Translations under genes and position numbers: made by a program | The notes under the pieces: model-generated | Seen by the model: the letters and a program-made list of their open reading frames with translations, nothing else | Databases searched by the model: none | What the model was told of the DNA's origin: nothing | NCBI GenBank assembly: GCA_002712305.1 | Contig: PATE01000059.1 | Span: 9,053-28,866, forward strand | Direction: 5' to 3' | DNA from: Gemmatimonadota bacterium | Lineage (GTDB): Bacteria > Latescibacterota > UBA2968 > UBA8231 | DNA length: 19,814 bases | In this document: piece by piece, positions 2,499 to 19,814 of the stretch | Numbering within the stretch: position 1 is the first letter of the stretch | Layout: each line of letters starts with the position of its first letter

Positions 2499-3812
2499 TT
2501 GACTCAGCGTCACATCCTCCTGATGTGGTTGCCCCTGGCTCTCAGCGCCATGCTGATGACGGGAGAGATCCTGTTAGTACAGGCCGCCGTGAGTCGCCTG
2601 CCAGACGCTAAACTCATGTTGGCCGCCTTGGGGATCATGTTCTGGCTCGAGGTCCTGATCGAGGCTCCGTTGATCATGCTGCTGTCGACGAGCACTGCAC
2701 TGACCACTTCGGCTCAGGCCTATGGGGTTTTGAAAAGGTTCATGGTGCATCTGAACCTGGGGGTGAGCGCCGTCGCCGTCTCCATCGCATTTATCGATCC
2801 GTTATTCGATCTCGTCCTGTGCGTCGGTATGGGCATTCCCGACATCGTAGCCGAGCCCACGCAGACGGGCATGAAGATCATGGGCCTGTGGCCCGCCGCC
2901 ATCGGCTGGCGACGTTTCAACCAGGGCATCCTCATTCGATATGGCCAGCCACGTCAGGTGACACTCGGTACTCTGGTCCGCCTTTTGACATCGGCTCTGG
3001 TTGCCTGCAGTCTGGTCATTTCCGGCGCCTTCAGCGGCATCGTCGTAGCCGCCATGACCTTCATGTCGGGCGTGACGGCGGAAGCGCTGTTTGCATGGTG
3101 GAAGAGCCGCGCCATCGTCGAGCGGCATCTGCGCGTCGATACCGAAGCGCCCGAACACCCACTGACCTACCGTGCAGCTGTCGACTTCCATCTTCCTTTG
3201 GCCGCCACGTCCGTGCTGTCCTATGTGGCGCTTCCCCTGGTCAATGCCGGCCTGTCGCGCATGGCGTCGCCTCAGGAGACACTGGCTGCGTGGCCGGTGG
3301 TCTACACACTCATCCTCATGTTCCGCGGTCCAGGTATTGCGATCCCTGAGACGGTGATCGCCCTCTTGCGCCGATTCGACGACCTGGCGTCACTGCGTCG
3401 TTTCTGCCTCATCGTCACCATGGGGTCCACCGCGCTGCTGGCCGTGGTGATCGTCACCCCCCTTGTGAAGCTGTACGTGAGACATGTCGTGGAGGCGCCA
3501 CGAGAATTGGAGCCCATGATCATGGTGGGCCTGCTCGGTTGTCTGCTCATTCCCGGTCTGGCCGCGTTGAGCAACTTCTATCGAGGGATCCTGATGGCCA
3601 GTCGGGCGACAAACTTCGTCTACTGGGGTATGGCGATCTATGTGGGTGCCACGGGAGTGGGCATCCTTGTGGGCGTCATATGGCAGACACCAGGAATCGT
3701 CACGGCCGCCGTTGCCATCTCGGTGGCGACCGTGTTGGAGACGGGTTATCTACAGCGACGATCGGCGGCCGTGCGAGCCATCAAGTGGCCAGCTAAGAGA
3801 GAGAGTTCATGA
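2499..3812 (+). CDS. Polytopic membrane transporter, MOP superfamily, ANKH-like
   Basis: 437 aa with about 11-12 hydrophobic segments (roughly 6-28, 38-62, 84-108, 155-176, 178-200, 228-250, 264-290, 302-322, 338-358, 374-396, 398-416). The two halves are visibly duplicated: LPLALS...AAVSRLPD...LAALG (11-45) matches LPLAAT...AGLSRMAS...LAAWP (232-266), and FNQGILIRYGQPR (140-152) matches FYRGILMASRATN (360-372). This two-fold repeat is the MATE/MOP flippase architecture. The WP-(x)n-GILIRY region and the late-helix pattern resemble the progressive ankylosis (ANKH) branch, known in animals for pyrophosphate/ATP/citrate export. Start is TTG 2499 with AGGGG upstream; the next candidate is ATG at 2523. 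It overlaps the following kinase gene by ATGA. Inner-membrane export of a small polyanion or lipid-linked substrate is inference. Confidence 0.7.
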   Translation: MTQRHILLMWLPLALSAMLMTGEILLVQAAVSRLPDAKLMLAALGIMFWLEVLIEAPLIMLLSTSTALTTSAQAYGVLKRFMVHLNLGVSAVAVSIAFIDPLFDLVLCVGMGIPDIVAEPTQTGMKIMGLWPAAIGWRRFNQGILIRYGQPRQVTLGTLVRLLTSALVACSLVISGAFSGIVVAAMTFMSGVTAEALFAWWKSRAIVERHLRVDTEAPEHPLTYRAAVDFHLPLAATSVLSYVALPLVNAGLSRMASPQETLAAWPVVYTLILMFRGPGIAIPETVIALLRRFDDLASLRRFCLIVTMGSTALLAVVIVTPLVKLYVRHVVEAPRELEPMIMVGLLGCLLIPGLAALSNFYRGILMASRATNFVYWGMAIYVGATGVGILVGVIWQTPGIVTAAVAISVATVLETGYLQRRSAAVRAIKWPAKRESS

Positions 3813-4714
3813 GACCCACAGCGATTGACATTCAGCGGCTGTGTGGCTTCGACGTACGGAGTATTCGTCCCTTCGGGGACAGTACGCGTGCCTTCTTTGC
3901 GGCAACGGAGGCAGGTCCCACGGTTTTGCGGATTCACGACGCGGCACGAACCGCCGCCCACCCCGGAGAGATGCGAAGCCTGCTTCTGTGCGAAGAGGCG
4001 GGGTATCTCGCACCACGGCTATTCAAAACCGCGACGGGTGACGTGTTGTTCCCGTGGGAGGATGGCGAAGGATACATGACGAGTTGGATCGAGGGCGAGG
4101 AACCCACGGGATCCGTCGACGACGCTTGCCAGTTCGGCGTCACGACGAGACAGCTGCATGCCATTCCGGCGCAGGGCCGAGATCTCCCGACCACGACATT
4201 CTCACCACCCTCATCGCGACGTGATTTCCAAAGACTCGATGCCGATCCAGCCGTGCGCGCCGGGGAAGGGTATGAAGCGTTGCGGGATCAACTGCATACC
4301 GCATGGGGTGGGATGTCCGATCTGGACGACATGCCGAAAGCCATCGTGCACACGGACGTTCACTGGGGAAATACGGTTCGGACGCCGGCAGGCGACATGG
4401 TGCTGATCGACTGGGATGACGCCGGGCTAGGGCCTGCGATCCAGGATATGGGATACTTCATCGCTCACAAAGCCGTACTGCCCACCGAGGGTGTTCGATG
4501 GGCGCCTGAGATGAGTATCGCCTTTCTCCAGGGATACGAACAAGCACGCCCCCTGAGCGACGCAGAGCGTCAGGCTCTGCCCCACTCCATCGTCTACGGG
4601 GCACCCTCCTACGTACTGCCCCCTGGGAGAATCGGATCTTCTCCCTCAACTGGGACCGCGTCAGAGCCGTTCTCGACGAACCCGAAACAGTGCGGGGAAA
4701 TCGGCCTGGGCTAG
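3809..4714 (+). CDS. APH/ChoK-like phosphotransferase, C-terminus probably frameshifted
   Basis: The frame encodes 301 aa. The kinase catalytic loop HTDVHWGN (H181, D183, N188) and the metal-binding DWDD (D201) identify the aminoglycoside/choline phosphotransferase fold, which phosphorylates small hydroxylated molecules with ATP. The N-lobe runs from about 15 to 95 with the hinge near MTSWIEGEE. The ATG overlaps the transporter stop (ATGA), so the two are coupled. After residue 270 the frame turns into Ser/Thr/Pro-rich, uncharacteristic sequence. The frame one base earlier reads PWENRIFSLNWDRVRAVLDE, a normal amphipathic C-terminus, beginning at a run of five C (4619-4623). A lost C is the simplest explanation. 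The restored frame stays open to 5034, overlapping the convergent SMP-30 gene, so the true end is uncertain. Confidence 0.8.
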   Translation: MRPTAIDIQRLCGFDVRSIRPFGDSTRAFFAATEAGPTVLRIHDAARTAAHPGEMRSLLLCEEAGYLAPRLFKTATGDVLFPWEDGEGYMTSWIEGEEPTGSVDDACQFGVTTRQLHAIPAQGRDLPTTTFSPPSSRRDFQRLDADPAVRAGEGYEALRDQLHTAWGGMSDLDDMPKAIVHTDVHWGNTVRTPAGDMVLIDWDDAGLGPAIQDMGYFIAHKAVLPTEGVRWAPEMSIAFLQGYEQARPLSDAERQALPHSIVYGAPSYVLPPGRIGSSPSTGTASEPFSTNPKQCGEIGLG

Positions 4715-5793: not shown

Positions 5794-7584
5794 TCATGCA
5801 CTGCGCACTTCCTCCAGTTGCTCCCACCGTGCCAGCGACTGGTTCAGTTCTGTCTCCGCCTCGGCGAGCCGGGTCTGCACAGCGGACACGTCGGTTCCAT
5901 TCGTATAGGTATCTGGTGAGGACAACGACGCTTGCAGTTGCTGAATCTCCGTCTCCAACTGGTCGATGTGCTCGGGCAGTTGGTCGAGCTCACGTCCCTC
6001 TTTGTAGCTCAGTTTCCGAGGACGCGATCGCGGAGTGTCGTCAGACAAAGGACCCGTCGATGCCGAGGAGACAGCCCGGGGCTTCTTCGATGGGGACGCG
6101 TCAGGTGCCGGCTGCTGACGCTGCCAGTCGCTGTACCCACCGATGTATTCCTTCACACCGCCTGACCCGTCGAAGGCGATCGTCGCCGTGGCGACATTGT
6201 CGAGGAATGTCCGATCGTGGCTGACCAGCAGGACTGTACCCGAAAAGGTGACCAGCGTCGCCTCCAGCACGTCAAGTGTTTCCGCGTCCAGATCGTTTGT
6301 CGGTTCGTCGAGGGCCAGCACATTCGCCGGCATGGTGAACAGCTTGGCCAGCAAGAGTCGATTGCGTTCGCCACCGGAAAGGACAGCGACCTTGTTCATG
6401 GCCTTCTCTTTGGTGAACAGAAAATCCTGCAGATACGCAAAGACGTGTTTCGTCTTGCCATCCACATCGACGCGATCAGACCCGTTGGCGACGCTGTCGA
6501 AGACCGTCTTGTCCTCGTCGAGCTGCGCACGCATCTGATCGAAATAGGCGACCTGTAGTCTCAGTCCGTGTTTGACTCGCCCTGCCTGCGGGGTCAGCTC
6601 GCCCAACAGAAGGCGTAGCAGTGTCGTCTTTCCGGCGCCATTCGGCCCGAGGAGGCAGATCTTGTCTCCTCTCAGGATTTCGGTTGTAAAGCCGTCGACG
6701 ATGGGGCGATCGTCGTAGCCGAAACGCAGATCCTGCACCGTGATCACCCGTTTGCTGCTCTTTTCGCTCTGCTGGAGCTTCGCCCGGACCCCGCCGACGC
6801 CCTGGCGCATGCGCCGACGTTCCTCCCTCATCCGCAGCAGCGCCCGAACGCGGCCCTCGTTGCGCGTGCGTCTCGCACGAACCCCCTGGCGCAGCCACGC
6901 CTCTTCCTCCTTCAGGCGCTGATCGAACTGGCCCTGCTGCGCCTGCTCGGCTTCCAATTGGGCCTCGCGGCGCTGCAGATACGTGGGATAGTCGCAGTTC
7001 CAGTTGAAGAGTCGTCCTCGATCGATCTCGAGGATGCGCGTCGCCAACGTTCGGGTCAGTGCCCGATCGTGGGTGATAAACAGCAGGGCACCCCGGCGCT
7101 TAAGCAGGAATTCCTCGAGCCAGAGGATCGCGTCGATGTCGAGATGATTTGTCGGCTCGTCCAGCAGCAGCAGATCCGGTTCCGTCGCCAGGGCTCTGGC
7201 CAGCAGAGCCCGTCGTTTCATCCCCACCGACAGCGTGGGAAAGTCGGCATCGGGGGACAGCTGCATCTTCGACAGCACGATGTCGACCACGGGCGGGCCC
7301 GTCTTCTGTTCGGGAACCGCAGCGGCCACCACATCTCGGATCGTCCCGGCCAGCGTCTCAGGAACATCCTGAGACAACAGGGCCACTCGGGTGTGCGGCT
7401 GCCAGTGGAGCACCCCATCGTCCGGATGCAGTTCTCCAGTGAGAATGCGCAACAGCGACGACTTGCCCGCGCCATTGCGCCCTAAGAGGCAGAGCCGTTC
7501 ACCGGGCTCGATCTGCAGATTGACCCCGGCGAACAAAGGCACGTCGTAAGCCAGCGCCACCCCGTTGAGTGAGACCAATGCCAT
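5794..7584 (-). CDS. uup: ABC-F family ATPase, Uup-type
   Basis: 596 aa with two ATP-binding cassettes and no membrane domain. Cassette 1: Walker A GRNGAGKS (35-42), degenerate signature LSVGMKRR (118-125), Walker B LDEPTNHLD (141-149), H-loop THD (171-173). Cassette 2: GPNGAGKT (313-320), LSGGE (402-406), LDEPTNDLD (425-433), SHD (455-457). The linker carries EEAWLRQGVRARRTRNEGR (227-245), the Uup hallmark. A basic Pro/Ser-rich tether (about 495-525) leads to a C-terminal coiled coil (530-595), the Uup DNA/ribosome-binding domain. ABC-F proteins act at the ribosomal E site or in translation homeostasis. It starts 9 bp after the aldo/keto reductase stop; a small hairpin spans that stop and overlaps the SD-like GGAG. 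Other ABC-F subfamilies are less likely given the linker and tail. Confidence 0.93.
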   Translation of the reverse strand: MALVSLNGVALAYDVPLFAGVNLQIEPGERLCLLGRNGAGKSSLLRILTGELHPDDGVLHWQPHTRVALLSQDVPETLAGTIRDVVAAAVPEQKTGPPVVDIVLSKMQLSPDADFPTLSVGMKRRALLARALATEPDLLLLDEPTNHLDIDAILWLEEFLLKRRGALLFITHDRALTRTLATRILEIDRGRLFNWNCDYPTYLQRREAQLEAEQAQQGQFDQRLKEEEAWLRQGVRARRTRNEGRVRALLRMREERRRMRQGVGGVRAKLQQSEKSSKRVITVQDLRFGYDDRPIVDGFTTEILRGDKICLLGPNGAGKTTLLRLLLGELTPQAGRVKHGLRLQVAYFDQMRAQLDEDKTVFDSVANGSDRVDVDGKTKHVFAYLQDFLFTKEKAMNKVAVLSGGERNRLLLAKLFTMPANVLALDEPTNDLDAETLDVLEATLVTFSGTVLLVSHDRTFLDNVATATIAFDGSGGVKEYIGGYSDWQRQQPAPDASPSKKPRAVSSASTGPLSDDTPRSRPRKLSYKEGRELDQLPEHIDQLETEIQQLQASLSSPDTYTNGTDVSAVQTRLAEAETELNQSLARWEQLEEVRSA

Positions 7585-7588
7585 GGAC

Positions 7589-7606
7589 GAGCGTCAGCGC
7601 TCCTTC
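7589..7606 (-). promoter_or_regulatory. Hairpin over reductase stop, overlapping the uup SD
   Basis: In the minus-strand transcript GAGCG-CUGA-CGCUC can pair (five perfect base pairs, tetranucleotide loop) across the aldo/keto reductase UGA. The 5' arm overlaps the only SD-like sequence (AAGGAG), which lies 15 nt before the uup AUG. A ribosome terminating at the reductase stop would open the hairpin. Translational coupling is an inference; the stem is short. Confidence 0.35.
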
Positions 7607-8508
7607 GTGTACGTGAAGGGCCGCTGTCCCCAGGGCATGGGGCGACCACGCCCGATCACCATCAGCTCATACCAGTCATCTCGCGCCAGTGAGATGTCTG
7701 CCGCCTGAATCGCTTCGGTGATGTGGTCGGCGTTTGCCGTTCCCACCAGCGGAATCACGCCACCGGGCAACTGCATTAACCAGGCGAGGGACAACTGGCC
7801 CGCCGTGACGCCGAGAGCCTGTGCCATGGTTTCAACCTGAGCGACCACACCGGCCTCACGCTGTTGCTGCCAGTCTCCGTGGTCGAACGTCCGCATTCCG
7901 GTGAGGGCTCCCCTTTGCAACGGACTCCAGCAGAGGATACTCATCTGTTGCTCGCAGCAGACCGCCGACAGCCCCGTTTCCAGGGGTTCGAGGTGCAGGA
8001 GACTGAACTGGGTCTGCAGCGACTCGATCCGGGTATAGGCCGACAAGGCACGGATCTCATCGGCGGTGTGGTTGCTGACCCCTGCATGTCGGATCTTTCC
8101 GTCCGCCTGCAGTTTCTCCAGCGCGGCAGCGGTCTCTTCGGGGTGAGTCAGGTAGTCCACCCCGAGTCGTTCCAGTGACGCTTCACAACTCTTGATCAGA
8201 TAGTCCTCGGACAAGTCGTAGGCCTTGTAGTCGTAGGCAGGTTCCATTCCCTGGAAGACGATGCCACACTTGCTGGCGATCACCACGTCATCGCGGTTGA
8301 TGCCTGCCTCTTTGAGCGCGCTACCGAGAATTGATTCCGCCTCACCTCGGCCATAGACATCGGCTGTGTCGAAAAAGTTGATCCCTTGTTCGAATGCAGC
8401 AGCGACGGCAGCTATGCCCTCTTCGGCGCGGTCCCCGATCAGGCTCATACCGCCATAGGCGATGGCGGACACATGAAGATCCGTGGACCCGAGTTGAACA
8501 GTGCGCAT
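7594..8508 (-). CDS. Aldo/keto reductase (YdhF-like) lacking the catalytic-His segment
   Basis: 304 aa, somewhat short for this family. Catalytic D47 and Y52 (FDTADVYG) and K80 (ASKCG) are present, followed by the HAGVSNH strand (141-147) and the C-terminal NADPH-binding region with PLVGTAN (253-259). Between SLERLGVDYL (to residue 120) and THPEET the usual DLxxxHRPDxL strand is absent. In E. coli YdhF that strand is DLLLIHRPDPL and holds the catalytic histidine. About 11 residues appear deleted in frame. The start is firm: ATG 8508 with GGAGGAG at ideal spacing. It follows the GTPase gene by 174 bp, so it may have its own promoter, and precedes the ABC-F gene by 9 bp. Family is certain; whether the product is active is doubtful. 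Confidence 0.88.
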   Translation of the reverse strand: MRTVQLGSTDLHVSAIAYGGMSLIGDRAEEGIAAVAAAFEQGINFFDTADVYGRGEAESILGSALKEAGINRDDVVIASKCGIVFQGMEPAYDYKAYDLSEDYLIKSCEASLERLGVDYLTHPEETAAALEKLQADGKIRHAGVSNHTADEIRALSAYTRIESLQTQFSLLHLEPLETGLSAVCCEQQMSILCWSPLQRGALTGMRTFDHGDWQQQREAGVVAQVETMAQALGVTAGQLSLAWLMQLPGGVIPLVGTANADHITEAIQAADISLARDDWYELMVIGRGRPMPWGQRPFTYTKER

Positions 8509-8611
8509 GATGGTCTCCTCCGATGGTCAGCTGTCGAACCACGCCCCCCTGCCAATGACGGCTCGACGATGGGGTAGGGTCAAGACGAACCTTGGCTCGA
8601 GGATGCCCTTC

Positions 8612-8617
8612 AGTATA
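8612..8617 (-). promoter_or_regulatory. Candidate -10 box upstream of aldo/keto reductase
   Basis: On the minus strand TATACT matches five of six bases of the sigma70 -10 consensus, about 100 bp before the reductase ATG, inside the 174-bp gap after the GTPase gene. No convincing -35 element is seen at 16-18 bp, so this is a weak candidate. Confidence 0.2.
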
Positions 8618-8682
8618 TTGCCCGAGAGTTTGACCAGACAGATGCCCTCGATCCAGCTGATGCCGACCGGAGACACCACCCG

Positions 8683-10641
8683 TTAGCGAATCGAGTCCTT
8701 GATCGCCCCTCGCCACCAGAGGATGTATTTGGCGCGATCTAGTGGCGAGATCCCACGATAGGGTCGCGTCTGGCCCAGGTCGGCGGGACACGGATCGTAT
8801 CCATCGAACTGCGTCGCCAGGGACGCTCTGCCACTGCTCAGTGAACTCAACTGGACCACATAATCCATCGACGTCGCCAGAGGCACACGCCCTGTGAGGG
8901 TGAATACGTCTCCGTCGATCTTGGCTGGTTCGATCTGCCCGCGCATGTTGATGATGTCGGATGTGATACGGCCGATCAGATCGCTGTGCCCCCGGATTTC
9001 GAAGGCGAGCATCGGCTCAAGCAGCGTCGTGTCCCCCGCTTGCAGGGCTTTCATCACCGCCATGTGGGTCGCCAGTTTGAAGTCACCGGGCCGGCTGTGC
9101 AGTAGATGATGGCTGCCCTCGAACAGGGTCACGCGCAGATCCGTCACCTCCCAGCCCTTGATCCCCTGACTCAGGGCCGTCGGTAGGAACTGCCGCACCT
9201 CATTCTGATACTTCGGGTGGATGTCGATCTTGTCGACGAGCGAATGGAATTCGATACCACTTCCCGGTTCACCTGCCTCGATTCGAAGACCGACGATCGC
9301 CCAGCAGGGCTTCGGCATCGTATAGGCCTCGGCCCCCTCTGCGGCGTTGGCCGGCGTCTCCTTATAGATGACGGTGGGTTCGTGGATCTTCGCCTTGAGA
9401 CCGAATCGCGTCTGCAGGATCTCGGTGAGGATTTCGGTCTGAATGGCCCCCATGATGCGCACGTGAAGTTCACGTTCGTCGTCGTGCCATCGAAGATCGA
9501 GCAGCGGATCCTCCGCTGACAACTGACGCAAGGCAGCCAGAAGATCTGTGAGTTGGGCGTCGTCGGTTGGTGAGACCTGAACCGACAACAGAGGCTGCGA
9601 CCAGCTCACAACGGCAGGGATCGGCCCCTCGTCACCGAGGACATCCCCGATCTGCGCATCGGGGAGCCCGGAGAGGAAGCCGATGTCCCCTGCCTGCAAC
9701 TGGCTGGCATCCTCCAGTCGATCGAGGGACAAGCGCTTGATCTGGGTGATCTGCTCTTCGCGATCTGCCGTCAGATTCTGGATGCGGTCGCGAGTCTTGA
9801 GAGATCCTGCAAAGACGCGCACTGCGGCGACCTGGCCGAGTCGCTCGTCACGATCCCTGCGGAAGACGACGGCCGACACAGGGTCATTGACAGCCCCCGG
9901 CGCATCGGGCAGCAGATCATTGACAGCGGTGAGCAGGGCCTTCACGCCGGCGCCACTTTTGGCACTGCCACACAACACCGGAAACAGACGCCGCGCTTCG
10001 ACACTGCTCGCCAGACTCTGGCGTAGAGTGGCATCGTCGATGGGCTCGTCAGCCAGGTATCGCTCCAGCAACCCATCATCTTCGGCGGCGACGGCCTCGC
10101 ACAGGGCTGTCCGGGTATCCTGGCCGGCACCGGAGACCGTGGCTGTCAGGTCTCCTGCACCGGTCACATCATCAACAGAAACGATGTGCGCGGAGAGTTC
10201 TCGCCTCAGCTGATCGCGAACGGCATCGGGATCGGCCCCGAGCCGATCGATCTTGTTGACGAAGAGCAATACAGGCAGATCGCGCTGTCGGAGGGCACGC
10301 CAGATCACCTCCGTCTGAGTCTGCACGCCGGCCACGCAGCACACCACGAGCACCGCCGCATCCAACACGCGCAGCGAACGCTCGACCTCCGCACCGAAAT
10401 CGACGTGCCCCGGTGTGTCGACCAGATTGATACGCAGATCATGCCAGTCGAAACAGAGTGCCGAGGACCTCACGGAGATGCCGCGCCGGCGCTCCACGGC
10501 CAGAACATCTGAATGACTCGTGCCACGGTCGACCTGCCCCACGTCCGGGATGTTGCCGCTGTGGAAGAGCAGGCTCTCAGTCAGCGTCGTCTTGCCGGCG
10601 TCCACATGCGCCAGGATGCCCAGATTGCGGATGCGTGTCAG
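8683..10641 (-). CDS. TetM/OtrA-like ribosomal protection (EF-G-like) GTPase, probable CTG start
   Basis: 652 aa if started at CTG 10641. G1 AHVDAGKTT (11-19), G2 RGISV (53-57), G3 DTPGH (75-79), G4 NKID (129-132) and G5 CGSAKSG (224-230) are all intact. Domains II-V follow in EF-G order, and the length matches TetM (about 640 aa) rather than EF-G (about 690 aa). The C-terminus ends PLDRAKYIL, as in actinobacterial-style TetM relatives, and the domain IV tip reads HSRPGDFKL. Members remove tetracycline from, or otherwise act at, the ribosomal A site. No ATG, GTG or TTG occurs near TRIRNLGILAHVDAGK; the ATG at 10845 would add 68 non-homologous residues inside the preceding gene. CTG at 10641 has AGGA six bases upstream and overlaps the preceding TGA (CTGA). 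Resistance function is not proven. Confidence 0.85.
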   Translation of the reverse strand: MTRIRNLGILAHVDAGKTTLTESLLFHSGNIPDVGQVDRGTSHSDVLAVERRRGISVRSSALCFDWHDLRINLVDTPGHVDFGAEVERSLRVLDAAVLVVCCVAGVQTQTEVIWRALRQRDLPVLLFVNKIDRLGADPDAVRDQLRRELSAHIVSVDDVTGAGDLTATVSGAGQDTRTALCEAVAAEDDGLLERYLADEPIDDATLRQSLASSVEARRLFPVLCGSAKSGAGVKALLTAVNDLLPDAPGAVNDPVSAVVFRRDRDERLGQVAAVRVFAGSLKTRDRIQNLTADREEQITQIKRLSLDRLEDASQLQAGDIGFLSGLPDAQIGDVLGDEGPIPAVVSWSQPLLSVQVSPTDDAQLTDLLAALRQLSAEDPLLDLRWHDDERELHVRIMGAIQTEILTEILQTRFGLKAKIHEPTVIYKETPANAAEGAEAYTMPKPCWAIVGLRIEAGEPGSGIEFHSLVDKIDIHPKYQNEVRQFLPTALSQGIKGWEVTDLRVTLFEGSHHLLHSRPGDFKLATHMAVMKALQAGDTTLLEPMLAFEIRGHSDLIGRITSDIINMRGQIEPAKIDGDVFTLTGRVPLATSMDYVVQLSSLSSGRASLATQFDGYDPCPADLGQTRPYRGISPLDRAKYILWWRGAIKDSIR

Positions 10642-17273: not shown

Positions 17274-18494
17274 TCAGACATCGTCGTCGCTGTTGACGAC
17301 GAGCAGTGCGTTGGCGACGGTGCGTTCACCCGTCGGATCCGATGGACGATTGACCACCTGATTGCGCACGACCATCGTCGTCTGGCCGCCGCCGTCGAGA
17401 TTCAGCGCTTGAGCGACGTTGGTGCGCGCCTTGGTGAACAGGGCCATCTTCGTCGTCATGAAGTCCGCCAGTTCAGCCAGACTCATGCCTACGCTGTAGC
17501 CCGGCTGGCGCCCGTCGACAGTCACCAGAAACAGCGCCTCGCCCTTGTCATCCACACCGAGTGCCGTTCGCGGATGACGATCGGTTGCGAAAGAAGCGCT
17601 CAGATTCTCGGCCTCGTGTTCGATGGACACACGCCCGTCACGAACGATCCGTGGCCCGCCACCGATCGCCTCGCGAAGTCCTTGTGAGATCGGCGACAGG
17701 CGACGAAACAGCTGCACTGTGTCACCGGGCGTCACCACCTCGTTGGCAAAGTCAGCCCCTCCGGCGACGAGCCACTGATCCTGTGCGAGCTTGAGGGGCC
17801 ATCGATGCCGACGCACCTGCAGAACGCGGGCACGAATCGTATCGGCGTCGCGCCACCCGCCCTCATCGAGGGATTGCAGGACGAAACCGACGTCGGCGTG
17901 CACCGTGTCTTTCCAGCCCTGGGCAAAGTGATTGAAGTAAGTCAGATCCGCCGAGCCTCGAGGATCTCGATTGACGTGGGAGATGGGTAAGGCCCGTCCA
18001 GACGCGGTCACCAGCCCCGCATCCAGATCGAACACATCGATGTGCAGTCCACCGTCACCGCCGATGGCAAAGGCGGAGCGCTGCAGAGGCTCGACCAACA
18101 GTTCGCCATCGCGCACCTGCAGTCCCATGGGTCGATGTGTTTCTGGGTAGAAGAAGTCACCATTGATTGCCGCCAGTGCGCGACTGCCCAGGACGCTCGT
18201 CTTTTCCAGACCCAACCCGTCAGACGGTGCGCGAGCCGATCTCAGCCTGACACCCGCACGACGGGCTGTGGGCAAGTCGACCTCGATCACGTGAAGAGCC
18301 CATGGGCCGTCGATCAGATCGACGGCATGATGCCACACCCCGGGGGCAAGCGCCTCTGTATTGGCGGGGATCGTCGGCCCCTTGCAACCAGCCAGCATGG
18401 CGGCCAGGACCCATGGCGTACAGGCCAGAGGCCGGAGCAACCCGTGTCTGAGCACGGGTCGTGGGCGTCGCAGACTCGTCCGGATCGCTGGCAT
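17274..18494 (-). CDS. Phosphodiester glycosidase (NAGPA/DUF2233) lipoprotein
   Basis: 406 aa from ATG 18494. An arginine-rich n-region, a hydrophobic stretch and the lipobox LAGC with Cys37 predict an exported lipoprotein. The NAGPA domain signatures are clear: INGDFFYP (110-117), AIGGGPRIVRDG (276-287), HPRTALG (307-313), VDGRQPGYSVG (326-336), LNLDGGG (364-370) and NRPSDPTGER (382-391). The human relative removes GlcNAc from phosphodiesters; bacterial members act on cell-surface or polymer phosphodiester glycosides. A GTG at 18515 would add seven residues; neither start has a clear SD. It heads the leftward catabolic group, 23 bp before the LDH2 gene. Surface release of a sugar that the downstream enzymes process is inferred. 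Confidence 0.85.
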   Translation of the reverse strand: MPAIRTSLRRPRPVLRHGLLRPLACTPWVLAAMLAGCKGPTIPANTEALAPGVWHHAVDLIDGPWALHVIEVDLPTARRAGVRLRSARAPSDGLGLEKTSVLGSRALAAINGDFFYPETHRPMGLQVRDGELLVEPLQRSAFAIGGDGGLHIDVFDLDAGLVTASGRALPISHVNRDPRGSADLTYFNHFAQGWKDTVHADVGFVLQSLDEGGWRDADTIRARVLQVRRHRWPLKLAQDQWLVAGGADFANEVVTPGDTVQLFRRLSPISQGLREAIGGGPRIVRDGRVSIEHEAENLSASFATDRHPRTALGVDDKGEALFLVTVDGRQPGYSVGMSLAELADFMTTKMALFTKARTNVAQALNLDGGGQTTMVVRNQVVNRPSDPTGERTVANALLVVNSDDDV

Positions 18495-18604
18495 GGGGGG
18501 GAGTGTCGGCGTCACGCGAGTTCGCAGATAGGGGAAGACCCGTCGAGTCGGAGGGATAGTTTGCGGCGATCCAGATCGACGGGTTCGGGTTCGCAGGGTC
18601 CGAG

Positions 18605-18647: not shown

Positions 18648-19138
18648 TCATCGCAGAAGCAGGAGCCGTCGTAGGAAACGTTCACGCCCCGTGTGCAGCG
18701 AAACGAAATACACCCCTGTGCGAAGCACGAGTCCGTCATCGCTGCGACCATCCCAGACGACGGCCGGCCACTAGTCATCGTGTGATCGAGCAACGTGCGC
18801 ACCCGTTGGCCCACCGTGTTGTGAATATCGAGACGAACTGCCGTCGCGCGAGGAAGCTCGACGAAGAGGACCGTCTCCGCATTGAACGGATTCGGATGAG
18901 CCGGAGCCAGGGCGACTTGCCCTGGCAGGCTACCGGGCAATCCATCGATCGCGCCGCCGCCTATACGGGCAGATGTCCGAGCAGTGCATCGATGTCCCCC
19001 CGGGCGAGCTGACCGTCGCCATCCAGATCGAACGCATCAAACGAGTGGATTCGGCTCCGGTCTTCCATCGCATCCAGCAACAGGAAGACATCGTCGAGGC
19101 CAAGTTCGCCGTCACCATCGAGGTCTCCGCAACGCTCG
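18648..19138 (-). pseudogene. 3' end of an exported dockerin-like / type IX sorting-domain protein, frameshifted
   Basis: Three reading frames in succession encode one recognisable C-terminus. First, 19137-18961 reads CGDLDGDGELGLDDVFLLLD, followed by FDLDGDGQLARGDIDALL: two EF-hand/dockerin-like calcium loops. That frame stops at TAG 18961-18963, while the next frame continues GGGAIDGLPG then LAPAHPNPFNAETVLFVELP and GQRVRTLL, the start of a FlgD-Ig/Por-type sorting domain. At about 18755-18762 the sense moves frame again to WDGRSDDGLVLRTGVYFVSL and ends FLRRLLLLR at TGA 18648. The order PNPFN, GQxVR, WDG, GVYF is exactly that of type IX-like C-terminal domains. Two single-base indels would restore it. 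The 5' part is absent: at about 19140 it abuts a polymerase-like frame. Confidence 0.75.
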
Positions 19139-19814
19139 CCGGTAGCGGATCGGATCGAGATCGCTGACGCCGATGTTGTAGAAGGTCAGACTGGGGGCGG
19201 CACTTCCCCGCAGAATGGTGCAATCTGCGGGGTGCGATAGCCGGTGGCGAAACGCTTGTTCGCCCAGTCGCGGATCTCTTTGACGATGAGGAAGTACGAC
19301 GGGTATCCGAGCTTCTCGATCGTTTCCAACTCCATCTGCTGGATCTGGCGGGCCCGGCGCGCCTCGGGTTTGCCACCGTAGTTTCGTTCGTAGCCCGCCC
19401 AGGCAAGTTCGGCCAGATGACTCTCCGGTGTGTGCCCGGCAGGCACCTCGACACGCGGCATGATCCACTTGCCCAGATCGAGTTGGATGTCGCCGCACTC
19501 CTCGGCGAGGCGCACACTGTTGGCCAGAGCAGCGGGGTGGGTGTCAAAGACCTGCTGCATCTGCGACGCCGAGCGGAAGGTCGCATCCGGGGGTGCGCAC
19601 TCCCCCGGACGCAGTCGCGATACCGTCGAATTGAGACCGATGGCGGTAAGGATCTCGTGGGTCGACGCGTCGTCGCGATCGAGAAAGTAGCTGTCATTCG
19701 ATGCCACCAACGGCACACCGATGGCGCAGGCGACGGCCTCCAGCTGCCGGCTGCGACGGCGGCTGCCGGCGCTGTTGTGGACGAGTTCGCCGAACAATCG
19801 ATCCCGATTCGGCG
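19139..19814 (-). pseudogene. DNA polymerase III alpha-like (DnaE) fragment, frameshifted and truncated
   Basis: The frame is open from the right edge, so the 5' end (PHP domain) lies outside. Visible are IGVPLVASNDSYFL (PHP end), SASQMQQVFDTHPAALANSV, a PSYFLIVKEIRDWAN segment and, after a frame change near 19224, DCTILRGSAAPSLTFYNIGV and SDLDPIRYR. These align with the DnaE region ending in the GRGSAAGSL loop and the DPLRY motif. CAG-ATT where CAG-GAT-TGC is expected points to one lost G; without it the frame stops at 19186. The catalytic palm with its aspartates should follow DPIRY, but the sequence switches to a dockerin-like frame at about 19139-19147. No polymerase activity is possible from this copy. 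It could be an assembly chimera. Confidence 0.75.

Follow-up and report, generated by a model that had tools for sequence, protein, structure and literature searches.

Scar of a probable 8.2 kb deletion joining a DnaE2-like polymerase gene to a secreted-protein gene in a Latescibacterota genome

The analysed DNA, a stretch of 19,814 nucleotides referred to here as the window, contains a joint at which the front of a DNA polymerase III alpha homologue abuts the end of a secreted-protein gene. With a probability of roughly 0.9, this junction marks where the chromosome of the window lineage truly lost some 8.2 kb, an event that destroyed a dispensable cassette of DnaE2 and Y-family genes and of which two damaged gene fragments remain. 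A real deletion is favoured because the flanks are colinear with the locus of a sister species, the skipped segment is absent from the assembly, the lesions lie close to the junction, and comparison with an unrelated assembly, that of UBA8231, disclosed a separate deletion of the same gene pair. The joint is neither a new protein nor a new kind of system, and its recurrence is the only unusual feature.

The joint and the two gene remnants

Both sides of the joint were located on the minus strand by tblastn with proteins of the sister species (G001). The homology to the polymerase orthologue ended at C80:28194 (window 19142) and the homology to the dockerin part of the NHL protein started at C80:28189 (window 19137), with E-values of 0.0 for the polymerase and 2e-37 for the tail, both far beyond chance. 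The preliminary description had followed the polymerase as far as the residues DPIRYR at about 19139 and the dockerin from about 19137, with essentially no spacer; the first position agrees with the measured end within about 3 bp, the second coincides with the measured start, and the joint itself holds four bases (window 19138-19141) that were clearly assignable to neither gene. The joint is out of frame, a stop following in the polymerase frame a few codons beyond it, and this together with the broken tail rules out that the window encodes a functional domain fusion. A search for a tRNA that might mark the breakpoint found none in the window. The features of the region are the following.

Window 17280..18524, minus strand: phosphodiester-glycosidase-like neighbour, intact, below the junction (single-frame match to G001, 75%; colinear)
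Window 18651..19137, minus strand: 3' remnant of a 1642-codon NHL / choice-of-anchor D / dockerin / FlgD_ig secreted-protein gene (tblastn; Pfam on the intact protein)
Window 18761..18764, minus strand: second frameshift of the tail, within the FlgD-like domain (tblastn frame change)
Window 18925..18943, minus strand: frameshift where the dockerin part gives way to the PNPFN/FlgD-like part (tblastn frame change)
Window 18961..18963, minus strand: in-frame TAG stop in the dockerin remnant (tblastn, sequence)
Window 19137..19142, minus strand: probable deletion junction (tblastn and comparison with G001, which has 8,231 bp that are absent here)
Window 19142..19814, continuing to about C80:29422-29425, minus strand: 5' remnant of a DnaE2-like DNA polymerase III alpha homologue (tblastn, Pfam)
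Window 19186..19814, minus strand, start outside the window: remaining polymerase open frame, 394 aa overall
Window 19228..19231, minus strand: frameshift in the polymerase remnant, which has one base fewer than G001 (alignment, sequence)

The polymerase homology runs in one frame from C80:29425 to 28280 and, after the one-base deletion, in another from 28283 to 28194; these parts match G001 residues 8-384 at 80% identity and residues 384-413 at 93%, respectively. Because of this frameshift, the polymerase open frame ends at window 19186, short of the junction. The remnant reaches residue 413 of 1124 (G001 numbering), which amounts to the front third of the gene, and Pfam recovered a PHP domain (3.2e-21) and positions 2-56 of 260 of DNA_pol3_alpha, i.e. 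only the start of the polymerase module. Of the catalytic aspartates of the palm, which we take to be D401, D403 and D555 of E. coli alpha, the first two aligned to G001 residues 430 and 432 and the last to a position beyond residue 550. None of the three is present in the window copy, and the UBA8231 copy, which extends to residue 470, lacks the third. As these residues are missing, neither fragment should be able to act as a polymerase, and the window gene would have no polymerase activity left.

The tail remnant matches G001 residues 1479-1642 in three frames, with 58% identity from residue 1479 on. It resembles the C-terminus of secreted NHL-repeat proteins with a dockerin-like repeat and an FlgD_ig / T9SS-type sorting tail, but in contrast to these proteins the window keeps only the last tenth, interrupted by the stop and the frameshifts. 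The protein is whole in G001 and was recovered in part in two further genomes (G005 and G009). A literature search on dockerin proteins in Latescibacteria returned nothing useful.

The decay is unevenly distributed. Among the 186 remnant codons near the junction, three frameshifts and one stop were counted; eight syntenic genes, with 2,488 codons together, had no lesion, a contrast with a probability of about 2e-5 if lesions were evenly spread. Base-calling errors alone were ruled out as an explanation of the frameshifts, since none occur in the eight neighbouring genes. The 5' polymerase fragment (377 codons) carries no lesion, and it shows as many unique amino-acid changes as the intact G001 copy (7 vs 7; Tajima counts 18:14 and 14:13); the UBA8231 fragment, set against the intact copy of G015, likewise displays no excess change (Tajima counts 33:32). 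Such an unscathed fragment differs from what is expected of an old pseudogene and thereby speaks against a deletion, unless the deletion is recent or the fragment is still constrained. Accordingly, either the losses are recent relative to the species splits, or the PHP fragment remains under constraint. The lesions in the tail suggest that decay of the secreted-protein gene may have begun earlier.

The intact locus of a sister species and the missing segment

G001, a sister species within the same genus, carries the intact locus on a single strand of one contig (C85; identical locus JABJJN010000023.1), in the order lactonase, a 131-codon open frame, the polymerase (1125 codons), a Y-family polymerase homologue, the 1642-codon NHL gene, glycosidase, dehydrogenase and oxidoreductase. 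The last three genes are common to G001 and the window, and outside the joint the gene order is colinear on both sides. The ends matched by the two remnants fall at C85:18261 and C85:10029, and the 8,231 bp between them are missing from the window genome. The preliminary description had offered a deletion breakpoint as one option, and this is borne out by the two halves lying on a single G001 contig, on the same strand and 8.23 kb apart, between the same outer genes. As in other pseudogenes made by deletion, an internal segment is lost, the flanks are colinear, frameshifts and a stop have accumulated, and a sister locus is intact.

On this evidence, the ancestor would have had the dnaE2-like gene, the Y-family homologue, the NHL/dockerin/FlgD-tail gene and the glycosidase gene in tandem on one strand. 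A deletion without long flanking repeats would then have brought polymerase codon 413 and secreted-protein codon 1479 together, with a change of frame. The catalytic core of the polymerase would have been removed along with the entire Y-family gene and some 90% of the secreted protein, so that a PHP-domain fragment of 394 aa and a damaged sorting-domain tail are left. A cause in long direct repeats was considered and rejected, as none above chance were found at the breakpoints in the G001 sequence.

The preliminary description had asked where the remainder of the two genes might be and whether another intact dnaE exists, and both searches were run. No copy of the missing 8,231 bp was found as DNA elsewhere in the assembly of the window genome. 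Protein searches of the same assembly returned only distant paralogues for the second part of the polymerase (29-31% identity), paralogues at 21-23% for the Y-family gene besides a short match at 37%, and nothing close for the NHL gene. Two further DnaE genes are present, whose open frames span 1156 and 1212 codons, and replication is therefore presumably unaffected. The preliminary description had called the polymerase a replication enzyme; the gene is a third, DnaE2-like paralogue that is not evidently replicative.

The window genome (G000, an uncultured Latescibacterota bacterium) is represented by an assembly of 4.77 Mb in 146 contigs with an estimated completeness of 90.9%, and the window corresponds to positions 9053-28866 of the 44,839-bp contig C80, with the junction about 16.6 kb from the closer contig end. 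Single N bases in this contig are grouped in three stretches (5963-9052, 28867-32813 and 42702-43663), the window being the N-free interval between two of them; they may stem from merged contigs or from strain variants. As a separate observation, a phosphotransferase-like open frame at window 3809-4714 seems to lack the expected C-terminal sequence near 4560, where another frame is open, and a frameshift near this position is possible.

Misassembly, which the preliminary description had raised alongside deletion, would mean that the locus is in fact intact and that the assembler, or a merger of contigs or strains, left out some 8 kb of it by linking two ends that lie far apart. The fragmentation into 146 contigs is compatible with this, the isolated N bases, the nearest of which lies 677 bp upstream of the junction, might mark merged contigs and count against a deletion, and the polymerase fragment appears to be under selection. 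Moreover, the G005 assembly shows that part of this locus can simply be absent from an assembly. However, the two breakpoints share no word above chance in G001, and the skipped segment does not turn up elsewhere. Further, the lesions are limited to the remnants near the junction and missing from the neighbouring genes, and the same gene pair is joined in the unrelated UBA8231 assembly, from another genus, at different breakpoints. An artefact is accordingly unlikely, and the joint was presumably present in a living cell.

A second joint between the same two genes

The UBA8231 locus (DPVW01000030.1, L074) belongs to a different genus and was equated with G012:C269 on the match of coordinates and frame. 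Here, polymerase residues 4-470 abut the C-terminus of the same secreted protein from about residue 1545 (G001 numbering), in frame, within a 606-codon open frame flanked by the same lactonase and glycosidase neighbours. Counted from the likely start, the open frame encodes 550 aa (L074:10043-11695), in which PHP and part of the palm are joined to an FlgD-like/PNPFN sorting tail. The preliminary description would have taken homologues that continue past DPIRY into the same dockerin-like sequence as a refutation of the chimera; the intact homologues instead run on as normal polymerase, while UBA8231 switches to the tail of the same secreted gene 57 residues after the polymerase end of the window. 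Unlike ordinary remnants joined by deletion, the same two genes were joined twice independently, once in frame.

The in-frame joint raises the question of whether the truncated polymerase is functional, with the PHP region acting as a stand-alone protein in the window and as a sorting-tail fusion in UBA8231. Relaxed selection was seen on neither fragment, as described above, and the open frames of 394 and 550 aa are intact from their likely starts. A recent loss would, however, yield the same substitution pattern, and one join in three is in frame by chance. In addition, the window joint is out of frame with a broken tail, and such a form occurs in no third genome. A retained function is decidedly unlikely on these grounds. 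The same low credence applies to the history it would entail, in which a mutagenesis polymerase was repeatedly turned into a small functional PHP protein as its catalytic half and the Y-family partner were lost more than once, perhaps under selection.

Returning to genuine deletion, two independent events joining the same two genes would be the simplest history, because the window genome and UBA8231 (breakpoints 413|1479 and 470|about 1545 in G001 residues, respectively) each keep sequence that is missing from the other. A single ancestral deletion, with the intact copies of G001, G005 and G015 regained or kept by lineage exchange, would account for the identical gene pair and the near-equal offset, but it is very hard to credit, since it requires extra losses and the trees contradict it for the most part: in the tree of the polymerase fragment, G000 pairs with the intact G001 copy (100/100), and the glycosidase tree groups G000 with G001 (100/100) and G012 with G005/G009 (100/99). 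That both right-hand breakpoints fall within the last tenth of the long gene may be chance.

Other relatives retain different parts of the locus. In G005, a single contig holds the 3' part of the polymerase together with the Y-family gene, and other contigs carry fragments of the NHL gene. G015 has kept the polymerase and the Y-family gene but lacks the NHL gene; its glycosidase gene directly follows the Y-family gene (L054:14529-14717), with no recognisable NHL-gene remnant, so the NHL gene has also been lost or gained separately.

The polymerase family and the meaning of its loss

The intact polymerase of the relatives scored below the cut-offs of the curated models, with 541 bits against 939 for the DnaE2 model PRK05672 and 609 bits against 1002 for the replicative PRK05673, and these models did not separate DnaE1 from DnaE2. 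The adjoining gene encodes IMS and IMS_C domains, which identifies it as a Y-family homologue, and its catalytic acids are apparently not conserved, as judged by one weak alignment to Dbh. In the phylum, this polymerase was found in 8 of 64 genomes, and two of the eight copies are truncated (the window and UBA8231). A survey of loci L053-L076 showed the DnaE paralogue in Latescibacterota, Fibrobacterota and relatives, mostly with the Y-family gene directly or closely downstream.

DnaE2 is reported to be non-essential and to vary in presence between related species (PMC3919608), and a DnaE2 with an inactive PolY partner has been described (PMC12926913). The intact relatives share with such mutasome cassettes (ImuA-ImuB-DnaE2, or DnaE2 with inactive PolY; PMC12926913) a DnaE paralogue that does not look replicative, an adjacent Y-family homologue and a patchy distribution. 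The Y-family protein is similar to ImuB and inactive PolY in its apparently unconserved catalytic acids, again on the one weak alignment. The polymerase is a spare, probably error-prone paralogue. The window copy differs from DnaE2 cassettes in having neither the catalytic part nor the partner, a loss that was presumably tolerated since the cassette is dispensable.

What was suspected to be an assembly error thereby becomes a documented gene loss. For annotators, a "polymerase fused to sorting domain" should not be taken as a new architecture, notably at the in-frame UBA8231 joint, which would be annotated as one protein. Within one bacterial family, deletions that joined the same gene pair have eliminated a presumed translesion-mutagenesis cassette on at least two occasions, and this repeated loss fits the view of DnaE2-type cassettes as easily discarded.
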